Part shown: positions 303-64,000 of the stretch, piece after piece
Layout: each line of letters starts with the position of its first letter
How positions within the stretch are numbered: position 1 is the stretch's first letter
Source: Pontibacter sp. G13
GTDB lineage: Bacteria; Bacteroidota; Bacteroidia; J057
DNA: 64,000 nt
Direction of reading: 5' to 3'
NCBI RefSeq assembly: GCF_031851795.1
Contig: NZ_CP134696.1
Span: 4,670,501-4,734,500, forward strand
Program-made: the position numbers and the translations under genes
The notes under the pieces: generated by a model
What the model saw: the letters and a program-made list of their open reading frames with translations, nothing else
The model's database searches: none
Told to the model about the DNA's origin: nothing

Positions 303-1253
303 ATGGCAGACGTAGCAGTTGACAAGAAAGCGTTGATCGAAGGTGAGCGACCGATATTTAATGCCAGCTACGGGAAGTTGATGATGTGGTTCTTCCTGGT
401 TTCAGATGCATTTACCTTTTCGGCACTCCTGATCACGTATGGTGCGCTTCGAATCAGATCCACCACGGAATTCGGTGCGCAGGCTTGGGCAAACCCCGAA
501 GCGGTGTTTACTCACACGCCTTTTCTCTATGAGATCTTCCACATTGAAGCGCCCTTGGTCTTTGTTGGGATCATGACCTTCATCCTCATCCTCTCTTCCG
601 TGACCATGGTATTGGCGGTTGAAGCTGGTCACCGGAAATCCAAAAACGAAGTAGCCAAGTGGGTACTCGCAACCATCATTGGTGGTGCAACCTTCTTGGG
701 ATGCCAGGCTTACGAATGGTACCACTTCATCCACGGATTCGATCAAAAAGGAGTCGTTATTTCTGTCGAGTCTCCCGCATTGGCTCATTTGTCAGCAGGA
801 GAACTGGAAGGCGCATATTATGAAGGCCATGGAGATCACGGCCACTCTCACGGTGAGCATACCAAGCAGGTGAAAGCCTTCGAAATGCTCAATACCGATG
901 GTGAATTGATCGGTTATCGCTTGAGCAACGGGATTCCTATTCGCGAAACCAAAGCAGTTGCCACGATCACTGAGCTCGCTTCTCATGAAGAGAATCTCAC
1001 GCATGGTGGTGCAAACCTCCAAGCGAGTGAATATGGACACAAGTCATTCGCTGCCTTGTTCTTCTTCGTTACAGGTTTCCACGGTACCCACGTATTCTCT
1101 GGGGTGATCCTCTTGATCGTCCTCTACGTGAATGTCGTAAAAGGAACCTATGAGCGTCGTGGCCACTACGAGATGACCGAGAAAATCGGCCTCTACTGGC
1201 ACTTTGTAGACTTGGTTTGGGTATTCGTATTTACCCTCTTTTACCTCATCTAA
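303..1253 (+). CDS. cytochrome c oxidase subunit III with His-rich insert
   Basis: Second subunit III gene of the terminal oxidase, 316 residues. Five hydrophobic helices can be placed at about 25-47, 82-106, 118-142, 246-279 and 292-316. The family signatures FHGTHVFSG (about 259-267) and LYWHFVDLVWVF (about 297-308) are intact. A soluble stretch of about 100 residues (about 143-245) separates helices 3 and 4. It contains a His-rich run at about 174-186 (GHGDHGHSHGEH) that could bind metal, although this is inference. Subunit III does not carry the catalytic centre; it stabilises subunit I and proton uptake. It lies between another subunit III gene and subunit IV with short gaps, so it is very likely part of one operon. 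Confidence 0.92.
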   Translation: MADVAVDKKALIEGERPIFNASYGKLMMWFFLVSDAFTFSALLITYGALRIRSTTEFGAQAWANPEAVFTHTPFLYEIFHIEAPLVFVGIMTFILILSSVTMVLAVEAGHRKSKNEVAKWVLATIIGGATFLGCQAYEWYHFIHGFDQKGVVISVESPALAHLSAGELEGAYYEGHGDHGHSHGEHTKQVKAFEMLNTDGELIGYRLSNGIPIRETKAVATITELASHEENLTHGGANLQASEYGHKSFAALFFFVTGFHGTHVFSGVILLIVLYVNVVKGTYERRGHYEMTEKIGLYWHFVDLVWVFVFTLFYLI

Positions 1254-1279
1254 TTCCGGACCCATAACGCATAGATACT

Positions 1280-1666
1280 ATGGCAAGTGATGGCGCAAGC
1301 GCACGCAAAGAAATATATCGCACGGCATTGATTTTGACGGCGTTGACGATCTTGGAATTTATCATCGCCTTTACCTGGGAATCCATTGGTGGGGCTATCG
1401 GGATCTCCGCTGAGACCGCCAAGACGATGACCGTGCTGTTGTACTTCATCCTCACTATCTTCAAGGCTTTCTACATCGTAGCGGTGTTTATGCACTTGAA
1501 AAATGAGGTGAAGCAGCTGATGTTGACGATTTTGCTTCCGTTTCTGTTTATCATCTGGTTGATCATCGGTTTGGTGATCGAAGGTGATTACTGGGGTGGG
1601 CAGTCTCAAGCCGAAGATTTGGCTGCTGCACACCAGACGGAGCAGGTGTTGGGAGACCTTTCCTAA
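1280..1666 (+). CDS. cytochrome c oxidase subunit IV family protein
   Basis: A 128-residue protein with three predicted membrane helices (about 15-33, 46-67 and 77-101) and the KAFYIVAVFMHLKNE segment typical of prokaryotic cytochrome c oxidase subunit IV (CtaF/CyoD-like). This small subunit helps assemble the oxidase and has no redox centre. It begins 26 bp after the subunit III stop and ends 18 bp before the SCO-like gene, which fits one transcription unit. The C-terminal tail after residue 110 is polar and probably soluble. Confidence 0.88.
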   Translation: MASDGASARKEIYRTALILTALTILEFIIAFTWESIGGAIGISAETAKTMTVLLYFILTIFKAFYIVAVFMHLKNEVKQLMLTILLPFLFIIWLIIGLVIEGDYWGGQSQAEDLAAAHQTEQVLGDLS

Positions 1667-1684
1667 GCATCTAACGGTTTACAT

Positions 1685-2350
1685 ATGACTAGACAGGGAA
1701 ATATTGCTCGGTGGATGGTGATGGCGGTTCTAGTGGTACCCATTATGTTGTATCTCTATCTCCGCTTTGGCGCCGACCACAAATTTGACCGAGTACCCTT
1801 TCAGTATGAAATTACCACAAATGGGGATTCTGCGATTCGCAGACTCCCCGTTTTTAGTATGGTGAGTACTGATGGGGATACCATTACCGATGAAGACCTC
1901 AAAGGCAATATCTGCTTCATCATGTTCGCGTCGGGAGAGCCTGACCCAGAAAACAAGGTGATGGTCATGCACGGTTTGTTGAAGCGACTCTATGACAATG
2001 TAGAGTGGGACCGTGGCGTGAATCTACGATTGGTGACCTTCCATACCGGAGATTCTACCGCGCAATTCGCTACCTTTGCAGATACCCTCGGAGTGGGTGA
2101 GGGATGGCTGTTTTTAAGTGGAAATCCTCAAGCTACCCAAGCCGTCGGCGAGGCAGCAGGTATTACCGCATTCACATGGGATACGACTTCCACTGCTCCT
2201 GTCGAGACCTACTCTGTGGTCTTGGTCGACAAGGAAGGTCGCTTCCGCTCGCTCTATGGCAATGGCATGGACTGGGGCAATGAGCGCAAAATGGAAGAAG
2301 ACTACATCACCTTGATGAGGCTGGAATACCCCGAGGAGCTAGAAAAATAA
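1685..2350 (+). CDS. SCO1/SenC-like thioredoxin-fold protein lacking copper ligands
   Basis: 221 residues: one N-terminal membrane anchor (about 9-27) and a periplasmic thioredoxin-like domain. The position after subunit IV is where SCO copper-delivery proteins usually lie, and the fold marks LPVFSMVSTDGDTIT, DLKGN and VVLVDKEGRFRSLYG fit the SCO family. SCO proteins bind copper with a CxxxC pair and a distal His. Here the expected CxxxC position reads ASGEPDPENK (about 82-91), and the region before VVLVDKEG (about 172-179) has no His. The only Cys (77) lies in the preceding beta strand. Copper delivery by the usual route is therefore unlikely. A structural or assembly role is possible but not shown. 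There are no frame disruptions, so it is not an obvious pseudogene. Confidence 0.8.
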   Translation: MTRQGNIARWMVMAVLVVPIMLYLYLRFGADHKFDRVPFQYEITTNGDSAIRRLPVFSMVSTDGDTITDEDLKGNICFIMFASGEPDPENKVMVMHGLLKRLYDNVEWDRGVNLRLVTFHTGDSTAQFATFADTLGVGEGWLFLSGNPQATQAVGEAAGITAFTWDTTSTAPVETYSVVLVDKEGRFRSLYGNGMDWGNERKMEEDYITLMRLEYPEELEK

Positions 2351-51058: not shown

Positions 51059-54000
51059 ATGTTCAAACAATTGTTGGCAAGCCTGGCCCTTCTTTGTATG
51101 GCCACGCAACTGATGGCGCAGAATACTCGGCCATCCCAGTCCGCAGAATCCCTCGATCTCCGGGAGGTTCAAGCATCCCCGCTCTCCGTTCCCCCAGCTG
51201 GTCAAGCCAAAGTTCGGGGAGGTAGAAGGAAATGTGGCTCTCTCCAAGCTGACCAAGATCTGCGGGCCAAACATCCCGATGGGTGCGATCAACCCGAAGA
51301 TTTTGAAAACTGGATGCAAGAAGGACTCAACCTACGCAAAAGAGCCCGCCAACGGGGCTCAGAGGAAGTCTACACCATTCCTGTGGTGGTCCATGTCATC
51401 TACAGCAACTATCGGGAGAATATTCCGGATGAGCAGGTCTTCTCTCAGATCGAAGTCCTTAATCAGGATTATCGCCGCAAAAATCCGGACCAAACCAATA
51501 CTCCACGCCAATTCAGAAACGTAGCGGCCGATACCAAAATCGAGTTTTGCCTCGCTTCTGTGGACCCAAATGGAAACCCCACCAATGGAATCCATCGAGT
51601 CTCTATGCCGGGCGCGCCTTTCACTGAGCGCAATTTCCAGAGCCGGGTACAACCCAACACTATCTGGAATCCTGATCAATACATGAATATCTGGGTCTGC
51701 AATCTTGCAGATAACGTAGTGGGATTCGCCCAATTCCCTGCCTCCAATCGGGTCGAAGGGCTTGCGGAATTTCGCAAAACTCGCGAATCTGACGGGGTTG
51801 TGATTCACTATCAGGCCTTTGGAACCGTGGGAGCAGTCCAGTATCCATTCAACAAAGGACGTACCGCCACGCACGAAGTAGGCCATTGGCTAGGGCTGAG
51901 ACATATTTGGGGTGACAATGGCTGTCTGGCAGATGACTATTGTAACGATACGCCTCCCACCGCCGAAGCCAACTACGAATGCGGGAGTCTTCCGACTGTT
52001 TGTGAATCCTTCACCGCGCCGATGATCCAGAATTACATGGATTATACGCCTGACCAGTGCATGAATCTCTTCACGCTGGAGCAAAAAGCACGGATGCGCA
52101 TGGTCCTGGAAACGAGCCCTCGTAGACAAAGCCTGCTCCGTTCTGGGCGATGCAATGAAGCGGTTTTGCCGCCGACGCCCAAATTTACCGCTGACCTCAC
52201 GAGCGGTTGCGGTCCGCTCAAGGTTCAATTCAAGGATTTGTCGGAGGGTAGCCAACTTTCTTACGAATGGTTTTTCACCGGAGGAAAGCCGGAGCGCTCG
52301 ACAGATCGCAATCCCAAGGTGACGTTCAAGCGTCCGGGCCGGTATGGGGTGACCCTGAGAGTTTCCAATTCAGCGGGAACACGGACCGTTTCACAAGAGC
52401 AATATATCCGCGTGTTGGATGGAGGTCGTACGCTTCCCTTTGCGATGGATGCAGAGGAAGTCGATGAATTGGAAGCCAAAAATATCCGCGTACTCAATCC
52501 CGATAGAGATGAAGCTTGGGCATTGGAAGAACGCGTTTCTGCTTACGGAAATGGATTGGGATCTGTCGCAATCCCTCCTGCGAGAAACTATCGGCCGGGT
52601 TCTGCTGACTGGCTGATCTTGCCGATGGTCGACTTCTCAAGGGATACTCGCCACCAAATCACGTTCGATTGGGCATACATGAGCCCCAGCGGAGTGTTTG
52701 ACGATACGCTTCGGGTCATGGTAGCGACGGGCTGTTCACATACATTTCAAGCAGTGTGGACCAAAACAGGTTCGGAATTGGGGCTTAAATCTCAAGTGCA
52801 GCAATCCAATGGGTTGCCAACGCCCGACCAGTGGAATCAAGAGGTCGTGGATTTGAGCAGATTCTCTGGAGACCCTTATGTCCAAATCGCCATCGTCCGC
52901 CGTTCAGGTACGGGCAATGCCACATTCATCGACAACTTCTCGGTTTCATCTGGGGTGCAGGTCAAACCGTCCAGTATGTTCTTCGCCGATGGCCGCAAAA
53001 TCTGTGAAGGGGAGTCGCTCTCCTTTCAAGATGAATCCAGCCAAGGACCCACCCGATGGCTCTGGTCATTTCCCGGTGGAGTGCCGGCTAGCTCTTCTGA
53101 ACGCAATCCCAAAGTCAGGTATGATCAAGCCGGAACTTATGCCGTTTCGCTGACTACCTTCAATGATGCGGGCAGCCATACATTTTCGCAATCTCAATAC
53201 GTCACTGTTCAAGCCAAACCCGAATTGGTCCTGACTGCTTCCAAAGCTACAGTGTGCCAAGGGGAAGTAGTCACCCTGGTAGGCTCAGGAAGTGCCTTAT
53301 TCAGTTGGGAGATGCCCGAAGGGATGACGACACCGACAGGGAATTCCATCCAGATTCATCCCGAATATGATGCGACCTACCGAATTGTCAGCAACAATAC
53401 TCAAGGCTGTAAAGCCTCGGATGAGGTGACAGTCCGGGTACGGGACGCACGTCCTTTTCAGGTTTCTCCTCCAGAGGCCTCTGTATGTCCCGGATCGACT
53501 GTGACCTTGCAAGTGACGGGCGCAGATGAGTATCGCTGGCAACCCGCTCCGGGCCTATCCAATACTTCCAGCGGATTGGTCAAAGTGACCCCCTCCCAGA
53601 CCACGACCTATGTGGTGGAAGGTACCACTGACAGCGGTTGTACCTATCGCAAGGAGGTACCTGTCAAAGTGGAAAACCCGGATGACCTGATCTTGTCCGT
53701 AGGGAGACAGGTGATCTGTGCCGGGGATACGGTCCATCTTTCGGCAGAAGGAGCTGGTGCCTATACATGGTCCCCTGCATCCTCGCTGAATATGCATGCA
53801 GGAAATCGGGTGATCGCGAGCCCCTCCCAGACCCAGACCTATACCGTAAAAGGAACCTCATTCGGCGGATGTGAAGCCACCCGTTCCATACGAATCGAAG
53901 TCGTCAACAAGCCTTCAATCGTGGTACAGGCATCAGATCGCAGTCCTTGCCCCGGTGCCACTGTGGAATTCAACGCCTTTGGTGCGGAGCAATTCCGGTG

Positions 54001-56539
54001 GATTTCTCCAGAGGATGGATTCTCTCACCAAGGTGCCAACTTCACTGCCCAACCCAAGCAACCTACCGAATACATCGTACAAGGAATTTCAGCTTACGGC
54101 TGTGCCGATACTGCCAAAGTGTTGATCAAACCTCAAGCAGGACAAGCCCTAGAGGTGGAAGTGTCAAAGCCCGTCATCTGTGCGGGAGAGATGAGTACGC
54201 TCAGCGTGAATCAAACCGGCAATTTCAGATGGTATGACGGAGCCGGAAATCAGGTCGGCTCAGGTAGTGTCATCCAAGTTCGCCCCAAACGAGAAGAGCG
54301 ATACAGAGTGGTGAATCTCAGTGGCAGTGATTGTTCCAGTACAGGGTATGCGACCGTAAAAGTCGCGTTGGGAGGAAGTCCCGTAGCTTCCTTTGAAGTG
54401 GATCGAGAGGTTTCTTGTGCAGGTCAATCGGTGACTTTCACGAGTTCTTCGAGCCAGGCTTCAGAATATTTCTGGGAGTTTCCGACGGGAATTCCTAGCC
54501 ACTCTACCGATCCCAATCCGGTCGTCAAATTCCCAACTGCAGGCTATCACACAGTTGCTTTGGAAGTAACAGGCTGCCGCGGCGGAAGAGATAAACTCGT
54601 ACGCGAGGAATTCGTGGTGGTGTCAGAAGCTTTCGATCTCAATCTGAATACCTTTGGAGAATTGATCTGTCAGGGAAGCACGGTGACCTTGAATGCCTCT
54701 GGGGGAAAAACCTACGAATGGAGTCCCGCCATTGGATTGAATAGCACCGAGGGATCGACCGTTTACGCGAGCCCGACAGAATCCATCGAATACACGGTCA
54801 CCGCTACCGATTTTGAAGGCTGTCAGGTGGTTCAGCATATTCCGATTGATGTCATCAGTACGGAAAGCGCATTGACCTTGAATCACAAAGATCCAGTGCT
54901 TTGCTCAGGAGAAGAGATTACGCTGGAGGCTGCTGGTGCTTACGAATACAATTGGAAGGCATCAGATGGTACCACTCATAATGGTCCCGTCTGGAGTGTT
55001 CAACCGACCAAAAGTGCCACCTACCTCGTCCACGCAGTCACCATTGATGGATGCGAGTTTCAGGATTCGGTCGTGGTGGAGGTGCGGGATTCGAAGGCAT
55101 TTGCCGTGAGGGCTGATCAGGCTTCTCTCTGTGAAGGGGAACAAACTCAGATTTCCATTCCGATTCCGGGGACGTACCAATGGGCGCCTAATTATGGTCT
55201 GAGTCAGACTTCCGGCACCCGTGTGACGGCTTTCCCAAGGGAGACGACGACCTACCAAGTGACAGGTGTGGATGAAATGGGATGTTCCCACAACGGAACT
55301 GTCACCATTGAAGTGAATCAAGGTTCTCGCGTACAACTGGATGCCGAGAAAGTGGAGATCTGTGCTGGAGATTCTACAATCCTTCGTGCCAAAGGTGGAA
55401 CTTCCTACAGTTGGGGACCTGCACTGGGATTGAGTCGGACCGTCGGATCGGCAATCTACGCATTCCCAACAGAGACGACCACCTATTCGGTGGTAGCTGC
55501 AGGAGCTGGCTGTGGAGCCGAAAAGCGAATTACGGTGGTGGTACATGATCCAGAACCCATCGTGGTGACTCCTCAAGATGCCCGAATCTGTGATGGATCT
55601 GGAATTACCTTGGAGGCGAGCGGAGCGAAATACTATATCTGGGAGGCCGCTGATGGCTTGGAGGTAATCGGAGGTCCAAGCGCCCCCGTCAAACCCGCTC
55701 AGACTACCCGATACACGGTACACGGTATGGATCAGCATGGCTGTCTGGCTAGCGGTTCTGCAACGGTCCGAATCGGGGGAGGAGAATTCATGCGTCTGGC
55801 GGCATCTACTGCTAAGGTCTGCGCCTCAGGCGAAGTGATTTTGGAGGCGGAAGGTGCCACGCAGTACACTTGGTTGAGTGGCCCCGGCATCTCCGAAAAC
55901 ACCCCCGCGAATGCTCGGGTAGCCATCAAACCCAATCAGGCAGGAACGTACCGCATGGTGGGAACCAATAGCCAAGGGTGCCGTGACACAGCTTCCGTAC
56001 GAGTTGAAGTCGCCAGAATGCGTCCCGAATTTGTGGTGTCCATAGATGAGATCGATTTGGCGACCGAGTCGGGAGAGATTCACTTGGAGGACAAAACCCC
56101 AGGAGCGACTTCTTGGAGTTGGTTGCTGGAATCGGAAGTATCGGCTGAAGGTGCCCACCTCACCCACGTTTTCACGGAGGTGGGAAGATACCCGATCACC
56201 CTACAGGTCTCCAATGGCGTATGTACCGAAACGCTCCGCAAGGAAATTCGCGTCATCAATTCTTCGAGTTTGAAGGAAATCCGAGATGAGGCCGGCATCA
56301 ACATTCGGTATATCTCCGAAAATGGCCGAGTCCGGATTGCGATGAAGATTCCTCGCAAGATGTTCCTCAATCTCCGGGTACTGGATCGCAGATCACATCA
56401 GGTGCTCCAGCAGGATTTGAGATTGGAGCCGGGACCGTTTTTGCAGGAATTGGACCTCAGCTCGTTCGAAGCAGGACAATATCTCGTCCAGATCAGTGAC
56501 GGAACAGAATTGGAAACCAAGACCATTACGATTCCCTAA
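51059..56539 (+). CDS. giant secreted M43-family metalloprotease with Ig-like and PKD repeats
   Basis: 1826 residues, signal peptide about 1-21. The protease domain (about 95-360) has the zinc motif HEVGHWLGLRH at 272-282 and a Met-turn region IQNYMDYTPDQCMNLFT, as in pappalysin-type (M43) enzymes. A PKD domain follows (about 378-465), then a jelly-roll-like domain (about 470-640) and a second PKD (about 645-718). After this come eleven related domains of about 75-85 residues, each with two Cys (pattern: CxGxxVTL, then W-P, T-YxVxG, GC), interrupted by a PKD, then a last PKD-like domain and a C-terminal type IX sorting-like domain. It is probably exported to the surface or medium. Substrate unknown. 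The catalytic site is intact. Confidence 0.92.
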   Translation: MFKQLLASLALLCMATQLMAQNTRPSQSAESLDLREVQASPLSVPPAGQAKVRGGRRKCGSLQADQDLRAKHPDGCDQPEDFENWMQEGLNLRKRARQRGSEEVYTIPVVVHVIYSNYRENIPDEQVFSQIEVLNQDYRRKNPDQTNTPRQFRNVAADTKIEFCLASVDPNGNPTNGIHRVSMPGAPFTERNFQSRVQPNTIWNPDQYMNIWVCNLADNVVGFAQFPASNRVEGLAEFRKTRESDGVVIHYQAFGTVGAVQYPFNKGRTATHEVGHWLGLRHIWGDNGCLADDYCNDTPPTAEANYECGSLPTVCESFTAPMIQNYMDYTPDQCMNLFTLEQKARMRMVLETSPRRQSLLRSGRCNEAVLPPTPKFTADLTSGCGPLKVQFKDLSEGSQLSYEWFFTGGKPERSTDRNPKVTFKRPGRYGVTLRVSNSAGTRTVSQEQYIRVLDGGRTLPFAMDAEEVDELEAKNIRVLNPDRDEAWALEERVSAYGNGLGSVAIPPARNYRPGSADWLILPMVDFSRDTRHQITFDWAYMSPSGVFDDTLRVMVATGCSHTFQAVWTKTGSELGLKSQVQQSNGLPTPDQWNQEVVDLSRFSGDPYVQIAIVRRSGTGNATFIDNFSVSSGVQVKPSSMFFADGRKICEGESLSFQDESSQGPTRWLWSFPGGVPASSSERNPKVRYDQAGTYAVSLTTFNDAGSHTFSQSQYVTVQAKPELVLTASKATVCQGEVVTLVGSGSALFSWEMPEGMTTPTGNSIQIHPEYDATYRIVSNNTQGCKASDEVTVRVRDARPFQVSPPEASVCPGSTVTLQVTGADEYRWQPAPGLSNTSSGLVKVTPSQTTTYVVEGTTDSGCTYRKEVPVKVENPDDLILSVGRQVICAGDTVHLSAEGAGAYTWSPASSLNMHAGNRVIASPSQTQTYTVKGTSFGGCEATRSIRIEVVNKPSIVVQASDRSPCPGATVEFNAFGAEQFRWISPEDGFSHQGANFTAQPKQPTEYIVQGISAYGCADTAKVLIKPQAGQALEVEVSKPVICAGEMSTLSVNQTGNFRWYDGAGNQVGSGSVIQVRPKREERYRVVNLSGSDCSSTGYATVKVALGGSPVASFEVDREVSCAGQSVTFTSSSSQASEYFWEFPTGIPSHSTDPNPVVKFPTAGYHTVALEVTGCRGGRDKLVREEFVVVSEAFDLNLNTFGELICQGSTVTLNASGGKTYEWSPAIGLNSTEGSTVYASPTESIEYTVTATDFEGCQVVQHIPIDVISTESALTLNHKDPVLCSGEEITLEAAGAYEYNWKASDGTTHNGPVWSVQPTKSATYLVHAVTIDGCEFQDSVVVEVRDSKAFAVRADQASLCEGEQTQISIPIPGTYQWAPNYGLSQTSGTRVTAFPRETTTYQVTGVDEMGCSHNGTVTIEVNQGSRVQLDAEKVEICAGDSTILRAKGGTSYSWGPALGLSRTVGSAIYAFPTETTTYSVVAAGAGCGAEKRITVVVHDPEPIVVTPQDARICDGSGITLEASGAKYYIWEAADGLEVIGGPSAPVKPAQTTRYTVHGMDQHGCLASGSATVRIGGGEFMRLAASTAKVCASGEVILEAEGATQYTWLSGPGISENTPANARVAIKPNQAGTYRMVGTNSQGCRDTASVRVEVARMRPEFVVSIDEIDLATESGEIHLEDKTPGATSWSWLLESEVSAEGAHLTHVFTEVGRYPITLQVSNGVCTETLRKEIRVINSSSLKEIRDEAGINIRYISENGRVRIAMKIPRKMFLNLRVLDRRSHQVLQQDLRLEPGPFLQELDLSSFEAGQYLVQISDGTELETKTITIP

Positions 56540-56818: not shown

Positions 56819-59395
56819 CTAATGCTTCGTCCAGACTTCGCTTAGCTGCACCTCATCTGCCAGGAGTCGGACGATATATCGCCCATCGGCCCATTGACTG
56901 GCAGGGATGTTCAGTTGCTCGCGCTCTAAGCTGGGCCTTGGGTGTGGAGATTGATAGACACTCCGACCTTGCATGTCCAGCACTTCGATCTGATAAGTCG
57001 GCGCTGAAATCCCCGTCAGTTCGATATGAAGTTGATCGCCCCCCGGATTCGGGAAGAGCGTCATGCGGTTGACGACCTGCAATGGGGGGCCGACCGATAC
57101 CACTTCCTGCTGCATGGGATATTGGAAAACGCCCCGACCATGCGTGGCGACCCGTACCTTGCGGTTGGCCTCGGAATAGCTGAGATCCATCACAAACAAG
57201 GGTTCCTCAAATCCAATCGTCAGATCCTGCCACGATTGCCCGCCGTTGTCGGAGAAGAATAGGCCGAGATCGCATCCGGCATACACATGCCCGGAATGCA
57301 TGGGGTCGAGCAATACGGCATTGAAAGGGACATCAGGCAAGCCGGTGGAAATGTCACTCCATGTCTGGCCGCCATTGGAAGATTCGAAGATATGCGAAGT
57401 CCCAAATCCGCCCAATGCCGCCACGAGATACTGGTCATCCGTCTCCGAAACCGCGAAATCCAAGGTCACACGATCTGGAAGCCCCGCTTGAATGGAGGTC
57501 CAAGTGACTCCGCCATTGGTGGTTTTGAGGACATTGGCAGATCCGTCGATGGTGATGTCGCCCATGTATCCTTCTTGCAAAGGCGTGGTGGAAATGTACA
57601 CCTTGTCGCAATCCTGATGAGAAATGGCCATGGCCACGGGCTTCCGCCCCTGATCGACCTGTCCACCTGATACCGGGAAGCTAGAAGTCCCGAAGTTGGT
57701 GGATTTGTGGATGGTATCGGCCCCGCCATACACGATGGATGGGTCGGTGGGACACACAACAAATGGCGCGATGAAAGCCGCATGCAAGGATGTGCGACCC
57801 GGGAAACCCACTGATAACCAGTTGAACGACTGGGCTTTGTTGGTGGATAGCGCAATCCGCAACCAGTAAACGCTGCCGTACACACGGTTGTCATCATTGG
57901 GGTCCACCCAGTTGAAAGCTCCATCTCCGCCAATCTGCCGTCGCCAAGCCACATCTCCTTCGTAGATGGCTGTGGCATTGTCCTGCAAGCCGCCGATGAA
58001 GAAGAGGGAATCCTGCTGAGAATTGGAGGTGCCGGGATAAAACTGAGTGGTCTGGTACCCACCGTTGGCTCCGGTGAAGGTTTCGCCATTGTCATAACTG
58101 ACGAATACGCCGCCATCTGTCGCGAAATACACCACATTGTGGTTGTCTGGACTACGCTGAATATCGTGGATATCTGCATGTACATAATCGGCAGGACCTT
58201 CTGGTCCGCCCACGGGAGTGGCATCGAATGACCAATTGTACCAATAGGATTTTTGGGTGAGGGAATTGGTCATGGTGGAGTACTTGAGCACATTGGTACC
58301 AGCCACGATGACATCAAATGGGTCGATGGGATTCACACTCAAATCATGGGCAAACCAGCCATAGGTGTAGGAGAATCCGCCTCTGGGAGCCCACATGGTT
58401 CCAAAATTCGTGGAGGCGTACAATTCCTCCGCGCTGTTCTGTGCGTAGCCGACTCCGGCGTACACGATGTCAGGATTGGAGGGCGACATCGCCAGCATGG
58501 TCTTGCCGATGAAGGTCGGGAAGGTGGAATTCTGCGACCAATTCTGTCCGCCGTCTACCGATTTGTAAAGCCCGCTTTGTGGATGTTGCAAGTTGCCCGC
58601 TGCGAATAGCATGCTGTCGCTATTCATGGGGTGGATCACGAGATCGGTCACAAGAGGTACGGTCGAAATCTGTGTCCAAGTCAAACCGCTATTGGTGGTC
58701 TGGTAAACTCCATGACTTGTCCCTGCGAAAAGGATGGTTGGATCTTTCGGGTGGAACTTCAGGACATTGATCCCGCGCATTTCCTCCATCATCCAGTCGA
58801 GCGACGGGGCCCAGGTCTGGCCTCCATCCGTGGTTTTCAGGATACCGATTCCATACGTGCCACGCGTTCGCCAGTGCATCCCATTGGAACTGGTATGCCG
58901 ATGGTTGTAGATCTCCCCGGTTCCGATGTACATGGTGTTGCTATCGGTCGGATGAATGGCGATGGCAGAGACCGCGATTACTGGATAACCAGTCGGAACG
59001 GGTTCCCATGCTTGTGCGCCGACTCCTGCGGTCTCACTTTTCCAGAGTCCTCCGCCGGCACTGCCTGCGTAAAGGGTCTGCGAATTCTGGGGATTGAATG
59101 CCAAGGCAAGCGTCCGCCCTCCGAAGTTTTTGGGGCCGAGCTCTTCCCAGCCTGCGGGCACTGATGCGGCCATTTTGGATGCTCCCGTCATGGCGCGTTT
59201 CTGGTTCCAAGCTCGTGAGATGGCACCGGCGGGGATTTCCTCAAAGGGATATGCCCGATGTTGGTACCAGTAGTCGAGCGATCTGGCTGCCCCCGACGGT
59301 TTGAAGGCATGGCGGCTCCGGTGGAAGTGTTGGGTGGACCAAATCATGAGACCGATGCTGCCCAAAAGCATCGAAGCGTAGATCAGTCTTTTCAT
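56819..59395 (-). CDS. secreted BNR-repeat (sialidase/VPS10-like propeller) protein with T9SS tail
   Basis: 858 residues with an N-terminal signal or anchor (about 4-21). About ten copies of the BNR/Asp-box type recur: KTTDGGQTWAP, QTTNSGLTWTQ, KSVDGGQNWSQ, VSYDNGETFTG, KTTNGGVTWTS, ESSNGGQTWSD, FSDNGGQSWQD. They form a large two-propeller region (about 85-770) like those of sortilin-type or xyloglucanase-type proteins. Catalytic residues of a glycosidase cannot be assigned. The last 80 residues are a type IX sorting domain (TLFPNPGGDQLHIEL ... GRYIVRLLADEVQ). Probably displayed or released outside the cell. Confidence 0.88.
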   Translation of the reverse strand: MKRLIYASMLLGSIGLMIWSTQHFHRSRHAFKPSGAARSLDYWYQHRAYPFEEIPAGAISRAWNQKRAMTGASKMAASVPAGWEELGPKNFGGRTLALAFNPQNSQTLYAGSAGGGLWKSETAGVGAQAWEPVPTGYPVIAVSAIAIHPTDSNTMYIGTGEIYNHRHTSSNGMHWRTRGTYGIGILKTTDGGQTWAPSLDWMMEEMRGINVLKFHPKDPTILFAGTSHGVYQTTNSGLTWTQISTVPLVTDLVIHPMNSDSMLFAAGNLQHPQSGLYKSVDGGQNWSQNSTFPTFIGKTMLAMSPSNPDIVYAGVGYAQNSAEELYASTNFGTMWAPRGGFSYTYGWFAHDLSVNPIDPFDVIVAGTNVLKYSTMTNSLTQKSYWYNWSFDATPVGGPEGPADYVHADIHDIQRSPDNHNVVYFATDGGVFVSYDNGETFTGANGGYQTTQFYPGTSNSQQDSLFFIGGLQDNATAIYEGDVAWRRQIGGDGAFNWVDPNDDNRVYGSVYWLRIALSTNKAQSFNWLSVGFPGRTSLHAAFIAPFVVCPTDPSIVYGGADTIHKSTNFGTSSFPVSGGQVDQGRKPVAMAISHQDCDKVYISTTPLQEGYMGDITIDGSANVLKTTNGGVTWTSIQAGLPDRVTLDFAVSETDDQYLVAALGGFGTSHIFESSNGGQTWSDISTGLPDVPFNAVLLDPMHSGHVYAGCDLGLFFSDNGGQSWQDLTIGFEEPLFVMDLSYSEANRKVRVATHGRGVFQYPMQQEVVSVGPPLQVVNRMTLFPNPGGDQLHIELTGISAPTYQIEVLDMQGRSVYQSPHPRPSLEREQLNIPASQWADGRYIVRLLADEVQLSEVWTKH

Positions 59396-59900: not shown

Positions 59901-62900
59901 TTATTCTCCGATTACGATATCTGAAGCCCGGGTCCAAGATCTGTATTCTGGGGTGTAGTACAGATAGGCATTCGAAGCCGGAGAAGCATACGTCCCCGGA
60001 GCTTCGGCTTTCAGATCAAAGTGGATGGTACGGGACTCTCCCGCCATGAAGTGCCGGAAGTACAGGATCACCTCGTGTCCGCGCACCTCCAAGAAATCCA
60101 CCTGTTCCTCTTTTACCAATTCCTTCAATTGCCAAGGCTGAGCACTCAATCCGCCCGGAATGCCGATGATGGCGATAGGGCTGGGCACTGCGGCGTCAGT
60201 CAGATTTTGGATCGAGCAACTCAAGCGGACGGTTTCGCCCATCTTGGCAGTAGACCTAGCCAGCTCGGTTTTGAGGTCCAATGCACAGGCAGATTGGGAG
60301 ACGGGCTTGGGCTGACTGTATTGAACCGACAACGTGTAGGGGAGGGGATTCCCATCGGCATAGACCACTTCCATGCGTTGACTTCCCGGCTGGAGATATT
60401 CTTCCAGTCCCTTCATGACGATAGGCTCATTGCTGCCCGCCTCGTAGGAGATGGACTTGACCGTTTCGCCATTTACTTTGATCAAAATTTGTCCGTCGGT
60501 TTCTGTTCGGCGATCATATTCCTCAAACATGATCAAGGACCGGAGCGCCAGCACAGTGGCATTGGTGGAGCCATAGTATCCTGCTCCACTCTTTTTGGCC
60601 CGAATTTCGGCGATGAGCCTTTTGACCAATGGACGGAACTGGTTGTCTCCTGCCTTCATCATGGCCATAGCTGCTAGCGCATTGGCTTCTACCGTCAAGG
60701 AGATTCCCGAAGAACCGGGCGCAGAACGATAGGAAGCGGTATGCACCAAACTGGGTTGCTCGGTTTGTTGTTGCATGAGGATACTGAGCAATTGGACAGC
60801 CTCGTCTTTTCGTCCGAAATTCATCAGGGTATTGGCCGCCAAGGCAAGCTCGTAGGGGGCACGAGATTGTTGAGCCTGGCGAGCGCTGTAAGCCACCTCT
60901 TTCTCCAAATCCGTAAAGCCAGCCTCAGAAAGCGCATAGGTGATGTACAAGCTCATGGTCTCATTGTTGGTCAGGCCGAAACTATGCAAGGCACGGCTAT
61001 TCCGCATGAATGCGCCCTTTCCATCTCGGCGGGACATCAGCCATTCGGTGGTGCGATCGATCATCTGCTGGCTGACTTTTGGGTAGACCTTTTGCATGTC
61101 GATAAATTCCAGCAATCCATAAGCCGTCAGCCCCTCATGCCCATCGCCTCGTCCAAACCATTCGTAGCCCCCGCTTCCACATTCGAAGCTGGTCAATCGC
61201 TTGTATCCCTTGTCAATCAACCCCAATGCACGTTTGCGGATACCGGGCTTGTCTTGCTTGGTGGCCTCAAGGTATTGGAGCACCAAGATGTTGGGATACG
61301 TGCTCGAAGAGGTCTGCTCAAAACACCCATGAGGCTCCCGGAGCATGCCCTCAAGTCCTGTCATGATCTCGCCCGTGACATCAGGGAAGGCGATGAAATT
61401 GGCTTTGATCGAGCTCGGAAAGGCCTCCGTGAGATCTAGCATTCCGACTTGATTGCGCTCGGTACCCGCCAAGGTCCAAGATTGAGGATAACCGAGATCG
61501 CCTAGTTGGATCGTCTGCTTCATCTCATCTGAATGCCCTTTGGACTGAACGGACAGGTAGATGGATGCCTCGCCAGATCTGCCGGTCACAACTACGGGAA
61601 GGTACTTGGAAAGGGACGTGCGGGCGGGTAGATCTATCGCGCCGGAGACATTGCCTAGTGCCATCAGACCGGGGGACAGTACTGCCGTATATTTCGCCTT
61701 GGTACCACGATGCTGATGGTTGTGGAAGGTCATGGGAATCATGAGCGTATCCCGCAACATGGCTTCCGCTGGAATCTTGGCCGTCAGGGCCACAGGCAAT
61801 TGACTGTAAATCTTCTGAGTTCCTCGCCCTACATCTCCTTGGGCACTGATCCCTTCTGCGGTGATCTGGAAGGAGGAGATGGCATCGGACGTGTAGAAGG
61901 AGAGTGTGGTGTATCCCGAAGCGGGGACATTCACTCGGCCATTCCAGTACAAAGTGGTACGGAAATCATTGCGCGCTTCTCGCTCGGAGGTGTAGGCATG
62001 ATCCGGCCCTGAGAACTGACGTGCTCGATAGTATCGGGTCGTTTGGGTTGGCGCAGCAGCTTGGAGAGAGGCTACTGGCAGAACAGGCGCTCCATCCAGC
62101 AATTTGAAGGCCCAAGGAATATTCACCCAGTATTGGATGGGTCGGCCACCCTGTACCGCCGGACTAAACTTCAAGCTCATGATATGCTTATCTATCTCGC
62201 TGGTAAGGATTGGGTGGACGGTGCGCACATGCTTATGCTTCTTGTATTGTCCGTTTTTGTCGATCAGGATTCTGGTGACTACCGTGCCTTCGATCCCGGC
62301 ATCCCGCGCAACCTTCGGATAGCCGATATTGCGACGAATCTCATCCAGATTGAGGGGGCGTGGCTCCTCTTCCGCAAAGATGAATTCATCCATTCGAGGG
62401 ACTTTTTGCCATTCGACATCTTCACTTTGAACCACGTGGACCACTTCTTCTTCCTCGTCATCCATTTCCATCTCGGGGATGTCCTCTGCGATTTCGAAGT
62501 CATCTTCCGCAGGCGCATCTACCAGAAGCTCTTTGGCCATCACTCCGTCGATGAAGAAAGCATTGTTATCGGCTCTAGCTCCACGAAGCTCCACATGGTT
62601 TGCTTCCACCATTTCAGCTGGCGGTGGAGGGGGAGGAAGAAGCTCCTCATCTACCTCTGCCATTTCATCCTCGACCATTTCGGGCCTAGCTGCTTGATCA
62701 ATGGGAATCACAACAGGCTGATTATTGGCGGTCGGTCTTGCTGGTTGTACAGCATCCCCTGCCCCCGCTTGTGGGTCATTGGGAATACCGGGAGCCGCGG
62801 CCACGATATTTCGATTCTGTCGCTTGGCCATTTTCTTGATGGATTTCCGCTGGCGATTGGCTCCTGCGACCACTACTTCTTCGAGCACCATTGTATTGGG

Positions 62901-64000
62901 CGCCATCGTAATTTGTAGTTCATTTTGGGACAAATCCGTGAATCGGGCGGTCTCATATCCGAGGTAATTCACTGCGAAAGACGATACTGGTGCAGCAAGG
63001 GAGATATTGAAGTTTCCGTCAAAATCTGTCGCAACTCCCGAGACAACCTCATTATTCGGTCCATAGAACACGACCGTAGCGCCAATCAGGGCTTCCCCTG
63101 TTTCTTCATCGGAGATATTGCCTTTGAAATAGTACTCCTTTCGGAAGTTGATGTCAGAGCCATATTCGTGGACGACTTGGCTTCTGTAGGCCCCGTCCTC
63201 AAAATACGCCTGAAGGGTTGCCGGTTGATAAAGGTCTAGATCACGGATGGAATAAGCTCCCACTGAATCAGCTTCGTAGGATTGTCCCGTCTCCAATACC
63301 TTGAGGGAAGCAAAAGGAACTGGATTGCCTTGAGCGTCGAGTACCAATCCAGACACCTCCCGCTGTTCTGCTATTTGCTTGATTCCGGGCAAATGGTCAG
63401 CCGTAATCTCCTCCCATGTAAATCTCCTCCAGCCATGTGTGAGCATCACAAGATCACGCGCTGGAACGGCTTTTTCTTCGGTTTTGTCAAAGTAGAAGTA
63501 GGGCTCTTGAATGTCTCCGCGGAGGTCTGCGCCCATCAAAAGCCAAGAGAGAATGTTGTGGGATTTGTCATCGGCAAAAGTCAAGATCTGGTCATCAGTT
63601 ACGGCTACGGACAGCTGGGCGGGAAGCGGTCTTCCCAAATAGTCAGATACGCTCACGGTCATGTTCACTTCCTCACGGGGGAGGTATCGCTCTTTGTCGG
63701 TTTCGATTTCCACCTGCATGGCACGGTCGGCATTCACGAAGGCGAGACGCTCGGCACGGGCCACGCCGCGGCCATCAAACAAGGTGAATTGTACCACCCC
63801 GGTCGGAAACTCTGTGGGGTCTAGGTCAATCTCCGTGACACCGGGATCTACCTCGTATTCGGATGCGAAATAGACCTCTCCACGCATCATGCCCACGAGG
63901 TGTAATTTGTCCTCGAAACTACTCTGCAATTGAATGCGAATTCGGTGCTCATCGGCTTCCAATACTCGGAGTCCCCAGCCACGCTTCAATGGCTTTGGCA
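59901..64000 (-). CDS. alpha-2-macroglobulin-like protein with inserted carboxypeptidase-regulatory and TonB C-terminal domains, partial
   Basis: The gene leaves the right edge; at least 1362 residues are visible (numbered from 63989) and the true start is outside. In order: the end of a macroglobulin MG region (about 30-130; TDKERYLPREEVNMTVSVSD); two carboxypeptidase-regulatory-like beta domains (about 213-275 and 290-370; EALIGATVVFYGPNNE, ATDFDGNFNI); a segment resembling a TonB-receptor plug (NHVELRGARADNNAFFIDGV, about 466-485) in a Pro- and acid-rich linker; a TonB C-terminal domain (about 543-640; YPKVARDAGIEGTVVTRILI); then the A2M complement-like part with the thioester-type motif CFEQ at 889-892 in PHGCFEQTSS, a helical thioester domain (about 880-1200) and a receptor-like C-terminus. 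It probably traps proteases or acts at the outer membrane. Confidence 0.88.
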   Translation of the reverse strand, partial: PKPLKRGWGLRVLEADEHRIRIQLQSSFEDKLHLVGMMRGEVYFASEYEVDPGVTEIDLDPTEFPTGVVQFTLFDGRGVARAERLAFVNADRAMQVEIETDKERYLPREEVNMTVSVSDYLGRPLPAQLSVAVTDDQILTFADDKSHNILSWLLMGADLRGDIQEPYFYFDKTEEKAVPARDLVMLTHGWRRFTWEEITADHLPGIKQIAEQREVSGLVLDAQGNPVPFASLKVLETGQSYEADSVGAYSIRDLDLYQPATLQAYFEDGAYRSQVVHEYGSDINFRKEYYFKGNISDEETGEALIGATVVFYGPNNEVVSGVATDFDGNFNISLAAPVSSFAVNYLGYETARFTDLSQNELQITMAPNTMVLEEVVVAGANRQRKSIKKMAKRQNRNIVAAAPGIPNDPQAGAGDAVQPARPTANNQPVVIPIDQAARPEMVEDEMAEVDEELLPPPPPPAEMVEANHVELRGARADNNAFFIDGVMAKELLVDAPAEDDFEIAEDIPEMEMDDEEEEVVHVVQSEDVEWQKVPRMDEFIFAEEEPRPLNLDEIRRNIGYPKVARDAGIEGTVVTRILIDKNGQYKKHKHVRTVHPILTSEIDKHIMSLKFSPAVQGGRPIQYWVNIPWAFKLLDGAPVLPVASLQAAAPTQTTRYYRARQFSGPDHAYTSEREARNDFRTTLYWNGRVNVPASGYTTLSFYTSDAISSFQITAEGISAQGDVGRGTQKIYSQLPVALTAKIPAEAMLRDTLMIPMTFHNHQHRGTKAKYTAVLSPGLMALGNVSGAIDLPARTSLSKYLPVVVTGRSGEASIYLSVQSKGHSDEMKQTIQLGDLGYPQSWTLAGTERNQVGMLDLTEAFPSSIKANFIAFPDVTGEIMTGLEGMLREPHGCFEQTSSSTYPNILVLQYLEATKQDKPGIRKRALGLIDKGYKRLTSFECGSGGYEWFGRGDGHEGLTAYGLLEFIDMQKVYPKVSQQMIDRTTEWLMSRRDGKGAFMRNSRALHSFGLTNNETMSLYITYALSEAGFTDLEKEVAYSARQAQQSRAPYELALAANTLMNFGRKDEAVQLLSILMQQQTEQPSLVHTASYRSAPGSSGISLTVEANALAAMAMMKAGDNQFRPLVKRLIAEIRAKKSGAGYYGSTNATVLALRSLIMFEEYDRRTETDGQILIKVNGETVKSISYEAGSNEPIVMKGLEEYLQPGSQRMEVVYADGNPLPYTLSVQYSQPKPVSQSACALDLKTELARSTAKMGETVRLSCSIQNLTDAAVPSPIAIIGIPGGLSAQPWQLKELVKEEQVDFLEVRGHEVILYFRHFMAGESRTIHFDLKAEAPGTYASPASNAYLYYTPEYRSWTRASDIVIGE

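Follow-up and report, generated by a model that had tools for sequence, protein, structure and literature searches.

Ton-system modules in the putative bait slot of a bacterial thioester macroglobulin

Among the closest described systems to the one reported here are thioester proteins of the alpha-2-macroglobulin (A2M) family. R732 and F735 of human A2M, and R730 and F733 of A2ML1, are described as part of a stretch that runs through the central channel and retracts once the bait has been cleaved (PMC9156758, PMC9352918), and the complement proteins C3, C4 and C5 as carrying a folded domain, the anaphylatoxin, in the bait slot before this channel-threading stretch (PMC9156758). Among bacterial members, those of the YfhM/ECAM type are thought to guard the periplasm (PMC4498604). 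The accepted picture of bacterial macroglobulins is that of protease traps in the periplasm; the literature searched describes no link between them and the import machinery of the outer membrane, and no report of a macroglobulin with TonB, plug, SusC or other Ton-system modules was found in the open-licence literature. Here we report a macroglobulin of Pontibacter sp. G13 (genome of 7.67 Mb in three contigs), encoded at the right end of a stretch of 64,000 nucleotides (C1:4670501-4734500; this whole stretch is called the window), whose bait-region slot appears to be filled with modules of the Ton system. Tentatively, we regard the protein as most likely a periplasmic trap that would dock at Ton-dependent receptors.

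The macroglobulin chain and its slot

The first-pass annotation, made from the window, lacked the 5' end of the gene. The genome DNA that was fetched supplies it: the frame open to the right end of the window is the 3' four-fifths of one intact gene, a single open frame with an ATG start (C1:4730401-4735542) encoding 1713 aa, and residue numbers below are those of this whole protein. An assembly chimera was rejected, as the same architecture is present in several independent genomes. MG2 (residues 55-155, Pfam E 6.6e-20), A2M and the thioester domain (TED) all exceed the Pfam cut-off and follow each other in the family order. The C-terminal half (residues 1209-1697) matches human A2M, with PHGCFEQ aligned to PYGCGEQ, and the nearest solved structures by profile search are CD109, A2M, TEP1 and A2ML1. 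By the sequence features tested, the protein is a thioester member of the A2M family; its intact CxEQ-type motif (GCFEQ) had been noted in the first-pass annotation. It shares with human A2M, CD109 and TEP1 the MG2 domain, a TED with GCxEQ, the A2M domain, a receptor-binding-type end and an R-x-x-F motif behind the bait, but it is bacterial and its slot of ~480 residues holds folded Ton-system domains, whereas the human bait region measures about 40 residues.

The protein is not of the YfhM type. Both are bacterial thioester macroglobulins, but the protein studied here is without bMG3, bMG5 and bMG6 (Pfam; all present in a paralogue) and no lipobox cysteine was found in its first 40 residues. 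Its N-terminus is a hydrophobic stretch and Pfam found no Por_Secre_tail; the most likely location, we infer, is the periplasm or the periplasmic face of the inner membrane. No penicillin-binding protein (pbpC being a YfhM-type neighbour) was recognised among the open reading frames (ORFs) of loci L009 and L011, which were read by eye only, and PADLOC gave no match. The paralogue (L133 6204-11735) is a separate YfhM-type A2M of this genome, of 1843 aa with GCVEQ.

The place of the insert was defined by aligning 13 full or nearly full sequences: 12 from a search of 22 genomes of the order, the window's own included, and one (L012) from a search of named genomes, which gave two loci with a full-length match in L012 only; the partial relatives L033, L053, L054 and L055 were left unaligned. 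The left border of the insert is TxGWR in 12 sequences and TRLWR in one, and the right border DFRxT is kept in all 13, with the anchor arginine in 12 and a glutamine in G012. Between these borders the sequences measure 242-491 aa and are not alignable throughout. The R-x-D-F of the right border was aligned by profile search to R-K-Y-F of human A2M and R-K-H-F of CD109, that is, to the channel-threading pair. On account of the kept borders and of this alignment, the Ton-system insert is judged to occupy the bait-region slot, immediately ahead of the R-x-x-F anchor. Insertion of the bait region in MG6 is likewise a judgement from sequence, as the AlphaFold model of the 681-residue slot region, computed with two sequences, is poor (mean pLDDT, the predicted local distance difference test, 35). 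The TonB C-terminal domain (TonB_C) would sit where complement C3 has its anaphylatoxin. This likeness is one of position only: the insert consists of TonB_C and SusC-type N-terminal extension (NTE) domains, with no anaphylatoxin and no convertase known.

From left to right, the insert holds two NTE domains, a Ton-box-like stretch, a plug remnant, an acidic linker and TonB_C, and ~40 residues then lead to the anchor (Table 1). Pfam counts two carboxypeptidase-regulatory stretches, the better at 640-725, in agreement with the first-pass annotation. Residues 201-280 of the slot model (640-719 of the protein) reach pLDDT block means of 56-78, and the best PDB match of this model is the NTE of SusC BT3090 (9hfj; TM-score 0.82 by target length). 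The Ton-box-like LEEVVVAG closes the second NTE, the place that the Ton box has in SusC receptors: Bt1763 is described as having its Ton box, VDEVVV, after the NTE, with growth on levan impaired by loss of the Ton box and abolished by loss of the NTE (PMC7782687). The Ton-box pattern of the window protein arises in 2.8% of shuffled inserts (0.4 to 3.6% over the inserts tested) and is present in nine of 17 full-length or nearly full macroglobulins, though the match in G154 looks spurious. The segment earlier read as plug-like holds up as a remnant of ~25 residues and not as a domain: the insert scores 16.2 bits against a hidden Markov model (HMM) built from plug sequences of three relatives, where 1000 shuffles reached 6.9 at most; Pfam Plug was not matched at E up to 10 and no barrel was found by Pfam. 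A complete plug in this protein was accordingly rejected. The order of NTE, Ton-box-like stretch and plug-derived residues is that of SusC/RagA receptors, but full plug and barrel are missing.

TonB_C was recognised in the first-pass annotation as lying inside the macroglobulin chain, which the complete gene bears out (residues 885-982 of 1713). Over 102 residues the domain shares 62% identity with one of the genome's own TonBs, whose gene lies ~83 kb away beside ExbB/ExbD-type genes (by sequence), with two ordinary TonB genes there, and of 45 positions that are conserved among 18 TonBs it keeps 37. A single-sequence model of the isolated domain has a core pLDDT of 74-87 and the order beta-beta-alpha-beta. 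Of the first 18 Foldseek matches of this model, 17 were TonB-type C-terminal domains (best E 0.011), and the first 16 matches of a second aligner were TonB or TolA domains, with middling Z values of 4.6-6.6. As sequence and predicted fold agree, we consider it a genuine TonB domain. As in TonB, a proline-rich linker precedes it; unlike in TonB, it is internal and followed by 730 residues of macroglobulin, instead of closing a short protein with a transmembrane (TM) anchor. The window protein is neither a TonB nor a receptor. Outside TonB, the domain also occurs elsewhere in this genome: L004 and L006 have it together with TPR repeats, L007 has it with an M56 peptidase domain, and in L005 it lies in a short ORF.

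Table 1. Features of the macroglobulin gene, with window coordinates, and of related loci
Feature	Residues	Coordinates	Strand	Remark
Macroglobulin gene, part inside the window	349-1713 + stop	59901..63998	-	First 348 codons beyond the right end of the window, genome C1 up to 4735542
A2M_BRD region, part before the insert	368-487	63582..63941	-	Weak Pfam match, 0.00046, just under cut-off
TxGWR motif	535-539	63426..63440	-	Left border of the hypervariable insert
Hypervariable insert in the putative bait-region slot, ~480 residues	540-1023	61974..63425	-	Alignment of relatives
First CarboxypepD_reg-like domain	approx. 562-627	63162..63359	-	Borders by eye
Second CarboxypepD_reg-like domain, SusC-type NTE (PF13715)	640-725	62868..63125	-	CarbopepD_reg_2, 1.5e-17
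Ton-box-like LEEVVVAG	720-727	62862..62885	-	End of second NTE
Proline- and acid-rich linker	736-884	62391..62837	-	Hexaproline 803-808
TonB-receptor plug remnant	816-840	62523..62597	-	~25 residues
TonB C-terminal domain	885-982	62097..62390	-	Pfam 907-981, 1.5e-11, 45 bits against cut-off 24.6
Bait-sized stretch, ~40 residues, between TonB_C and anchor	983-1023	61974..62096	-	
RNDFRTTLYW	1024-1033	61944..61973	-	R-x-x-F anchor of the A2M family (alpha'NT / BR-C)
A2M domain PF00207	1032-1117	61692..61949	-	Pfam 8e-5
Thioester domain (TED)	1221-1503	60534..61382	-	Pfam 5.2e-29
GCFEQ thioester motif	1239-1243	61314..61328	-	Aligns with GCGEQ of human A2M
bMG10 / receptor-binding-type C-terminal MG domain	1635-1699	59946..60140	-	Pfam
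Plugless SusC-family barrel directly upstream of a plug-carrying macroglobulin		L134 6199-13652; L135 7163-14498; L136 5770-13062; L182 1066-8599		

Recurrence of the modules and history of the TonB domain

Pfam found TED in all 13 aligned sequences, CarboxypepD_reg in 11, TonB_C in seven and Plug in three. Beyond the order, a sample of the phylum gave matches in 45 of 394 genomes (E <= 1e-20), and TonB_C was absent by a custom HMM from 29 further loci read from it (L058-L086). A sample of the class gave matches in 64 of 396 genomes (E <= 1e-45), nine of them of the order and one (G042) already seen; 40 loci were fetched from the remaining 54, leaving 14. These 40 loci hold a plug in two cases (L171, L182) and TonB_C in one (L172, Pfam E 4.7e-19). 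Inserts with neither module measure 221-276 aa in all 32 measurable cases (length was unreadable in six of the 40 loci), so the short insert appears to be the usual state and TonB_C an addition; L150, the only short-insert example scanned with Pfam, holds one NTE-like domain. The domain order thus recurs within the order, with TonB_C in seven of 13 relatives, and hardly in the wider sample, with one of the 40 others read. Wherever TonB_C is present in a macroglobulin (eight of eight copies), it ends 34-46 residues before the anchor. Among ten short relatives without the thioester motif, a plug was found in nine at E <= 0.01 and in seven above the Pfam cut-off. The short relative encoded in this genome is an 836-aa half-macroglobulin without the thioester motif (L056 1557-4067, C1:2582556-2585066); reading by eye shows plug-like words in its slot, but Pfam Plug gave no match.

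A tree of the macroglobulin core, computed without the insert columns, requires two changes of TonB_C state over its 13 rows, a number as low in six of 500 shuffles, and joins the macroglobulins of G006 and G008 as sisters (100/100). The TonB_C tree departs from it, the grouping partners being TonBs of G006 for the G006 copy (99/98), TonBs of G008 and of the congener G007 for the G008 copy (92/87), TonBs of G012 for the G012 copy (80/90, with the G013 copy in the same fork) and TonB_C proteins of G641 for the G641 copy (100/100). Keeping the TonB_C domains of G006 and G008 together, as in the core tree, gave p 0.029 in the approximately unbiased (AU) test. A single origin of the macroglobulin TonB_C domains was rejected (AU p 0.00055 with eight copies, 0.0074 and 0.0054 with seven); this leans partly on G013 and G641, the p value for one clade being 0.06 without the long-branched G013 copy. 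The third tree, of 55 rows, leaves out three long-branched TonB_C rows of G006 and G007 and contains duplicates from G641 (L198 and L199 repeat L191; L195 equals L196). By identity among 18 TonBs of 13 genomes, five of the seven copies in the order are closest to the TonB of their own genome, a count that random assignment of genomes reached in 2 of 100,000 trials; none of eight other TonB_C proteins of the same genomes showed such a match (Fisher p 0.007). Since these domains are not one lineage and mostly resemble the TonB of their own cell, they appear to have been recaptured from it or kept matched to it, repeated capture and gene conversion being indistinguishable here.

In three relatives, G247, G042 and G231, the slot carries a complete plug (Pfam 1.4e-18, 2.5e-14 and 3e-16) with a Ton-box-like stretch ahead of it. 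The gene immediately upstream, in the same orientation, codes for a protein of 923-958 aa of the SusC/RagA barrel family. With TIGR04056 these barrel proteins give E 9e-18 to 3e-49, short of the family cut-off. Pfam detected no plug in them at E up to 0.05, and a custom plug HMM gave a best E of 0.02; the Pfam result weighs more, because the custom HMM contains its two SusC positive controls and gave only E 0.003 for an independent receptor (L143). A fourth pair, in G677 of the class sample, combines the same kind of plug-bearing macroglobulin and plugless SusC-type barrel, and its barrel was the only match of the barrel HMM among the ORFs of the 40 class loci. Near these genes there is an extracytoplasmic-function (ECF) sigma gene, recognised by Pfam in G247 and by eye in G042 and G231. 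No such barrel was found in the DNA read around the plug-bearers of the order (L012, L048, L052). The pairs raise the question of whether the plug of a receptor can be a separate protein.

Several plug-bearing proteins at these loci deserve mention in their own right. In L012 (6956-12527), from a metagenome-assembled genome of the Saprospiraceae, the macroglobulin gene overlaps the end of an ECF sigma gene, and the N-terminus of its product shows by eye an anti-sigma-like stretch and a TM helix, resembling a one-piece surface-signalling receptor. A protein of L136 (3379-5703) combines in one chain an anti-sigma-like N-terminus and TM helix (by eye), a Ton box, Plug, VWA and a tail of the type IX secretion system (T9SS). 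L134 (5605-6090) encodes a secreted-looking protein of 162 aa with two plug-like C-terminal halves (Plug E 1.8e-9).

Possible roles of the insert

We tentatively favour the following scheme. The bait slot of a thioester A2M, probably periplasmic, would be filled with Ton-system modules, and TonB_C (and the Ton box) would attach the trap to TonB-dependent receptors by way of their Ton boxes, or else to TonB. Foreign proteases or protein toxins may use these receptors as entry gates. On cleavage of the long exposed slot by a protease, the anchor would come free, the macroglobulin would collapse and the GCFEQ thioester would bond the protease at the gate. The Ton box and the TonB domain are best read as parts of two periplasmic partners, placed in the trap where its trigger lies, and the match between TonB_C and the TonB of the same cell would follow from docking on that cell's receptors. 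The first-pass annotation had suggested a coupling of the trap to outer-membrane receptors or to energy transduction; the receptor link gains from the own-TonB match and from the plugless barrels beside four plug-bearing relatives.

Several observations weigh against docking. TonB_C is missing from six of the 13 relatives in the order, and the Ton box, by the pattern used, from eight, so docking cannot be required for trapping. No receptor gene was found beside the macroglobulin gene of the window. The match to the own TonB has a thin margin (61% versus 59% for the window copy, 60% versus 58% for G016); by bit score the G016 copy prefers the TonB of G000, the copies of G011 and G013 (two of the seven) do not match their own TonB, and that of G000 falls in an unresolved fork of the 55-row TonB_C tree. 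TonB_C is moreover promiscuous in this genome, as the TPR and M56 proteins carry it outside TonB. The slot that repeatedly takes up Ton-system parts and the own-TonB match provide a concrete, testable link between protease defence and TonB-dependent import. The protein also shows that bacteria put folded domains into the slot in which complement has its signalling fragment.

The comparison with complement may be taken further, in that cleavage would arm the thioester and at the same time free or expose a ligand of the Ton gates, while the slots of the sister systems would supply a plug in trans to a plugless SusC-type barrel. We consider such a counterpart of C3 unlikely; if it were true, the freed or exposed TonB_C would close or mark gates. 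TonB_C could also be a cargo in the manner of C3a: cuts on both sides would free it into the periplasm, where it would occupy Ton boxes and shut Ton-dependent gates while the trap takes the protease. In E. coli, a TonB domain that is soluble in the periplasm acts as an inhibitor of transport (a literature search for this effect returned nothing relevant), and a competitive inhibitor would need just the observed matching to the own TonB. TonB_C further lies between two cleavable stretches, at a steady 34-46 residues from the anchor, in the slot described for the anaphylatoxin of complement (PMC9156758), but a single cut would leave it tethered, and we give this release a low probability.

Alternatively, the slot may accept any insertion, with abundant Ton-system genes as donors and modules that do nothing. 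The wide range of insert lengths in the 13 relatives, the many NTE donors in this genome and the degenerate copies, such as the plug remnant of the window protein and the G013 TonB_C that keeps 26 of 45 positions, are all in line with such baggage. It is nonetheless doubtful, as TonB_C presence is clustered on the macroglobulin tree while its sequence follows the own TonB, and as the distance from TonB_C to the anchor is constant. Quite unlikely, in our view, is a decoy that works with no docking at all, the slot copying periplasmic targets of invading proteases (TonB, the receptor NTE, the plug) so that whatever cuts one of these is caught. The Ton-system origin of the recurrent modules, the match of captured copies to the own TonB and the long acidic, proline-rich linker would suit a decoy, but bait has no need of a folded conserved domain, and the seven copies of the order still have 26 to 41 of the 45 conserved TonB positions; most relatives, moreover, have a short plain insert. 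Although a hydrophobic N-terminal stretch and TonB_C in one chain recall an energy transducer that ExbB/ExbD would drive to pull on receptors, such a role, also suggested earlier, was rejected as highly improbable, given that TonB_C is internal and begins ~880 residues from the N-terminus, that exbB/exbD were not recognised near the macroglobulin gene, and that two ordinary TonB genes with ExbB/ExbD-type neighbours lie ~83 kb away.

Neighbouring genes

Directly downstream of the macroglobulin gene, the window encodes on the minus strand a Sortilin-like propeller protein with a T9SS tail (56819-59395); a similar-looking gene lies downstream of the G011 macroglobulin (L047 186-2768). Two genes from the macroglobulin gene, on the plus strand (51059-56539), a protein of 1826 aa carries, by eye, a metalloprotease-type motif (HEVGHWLGLRH) and many Ig/PKD-like repeats.

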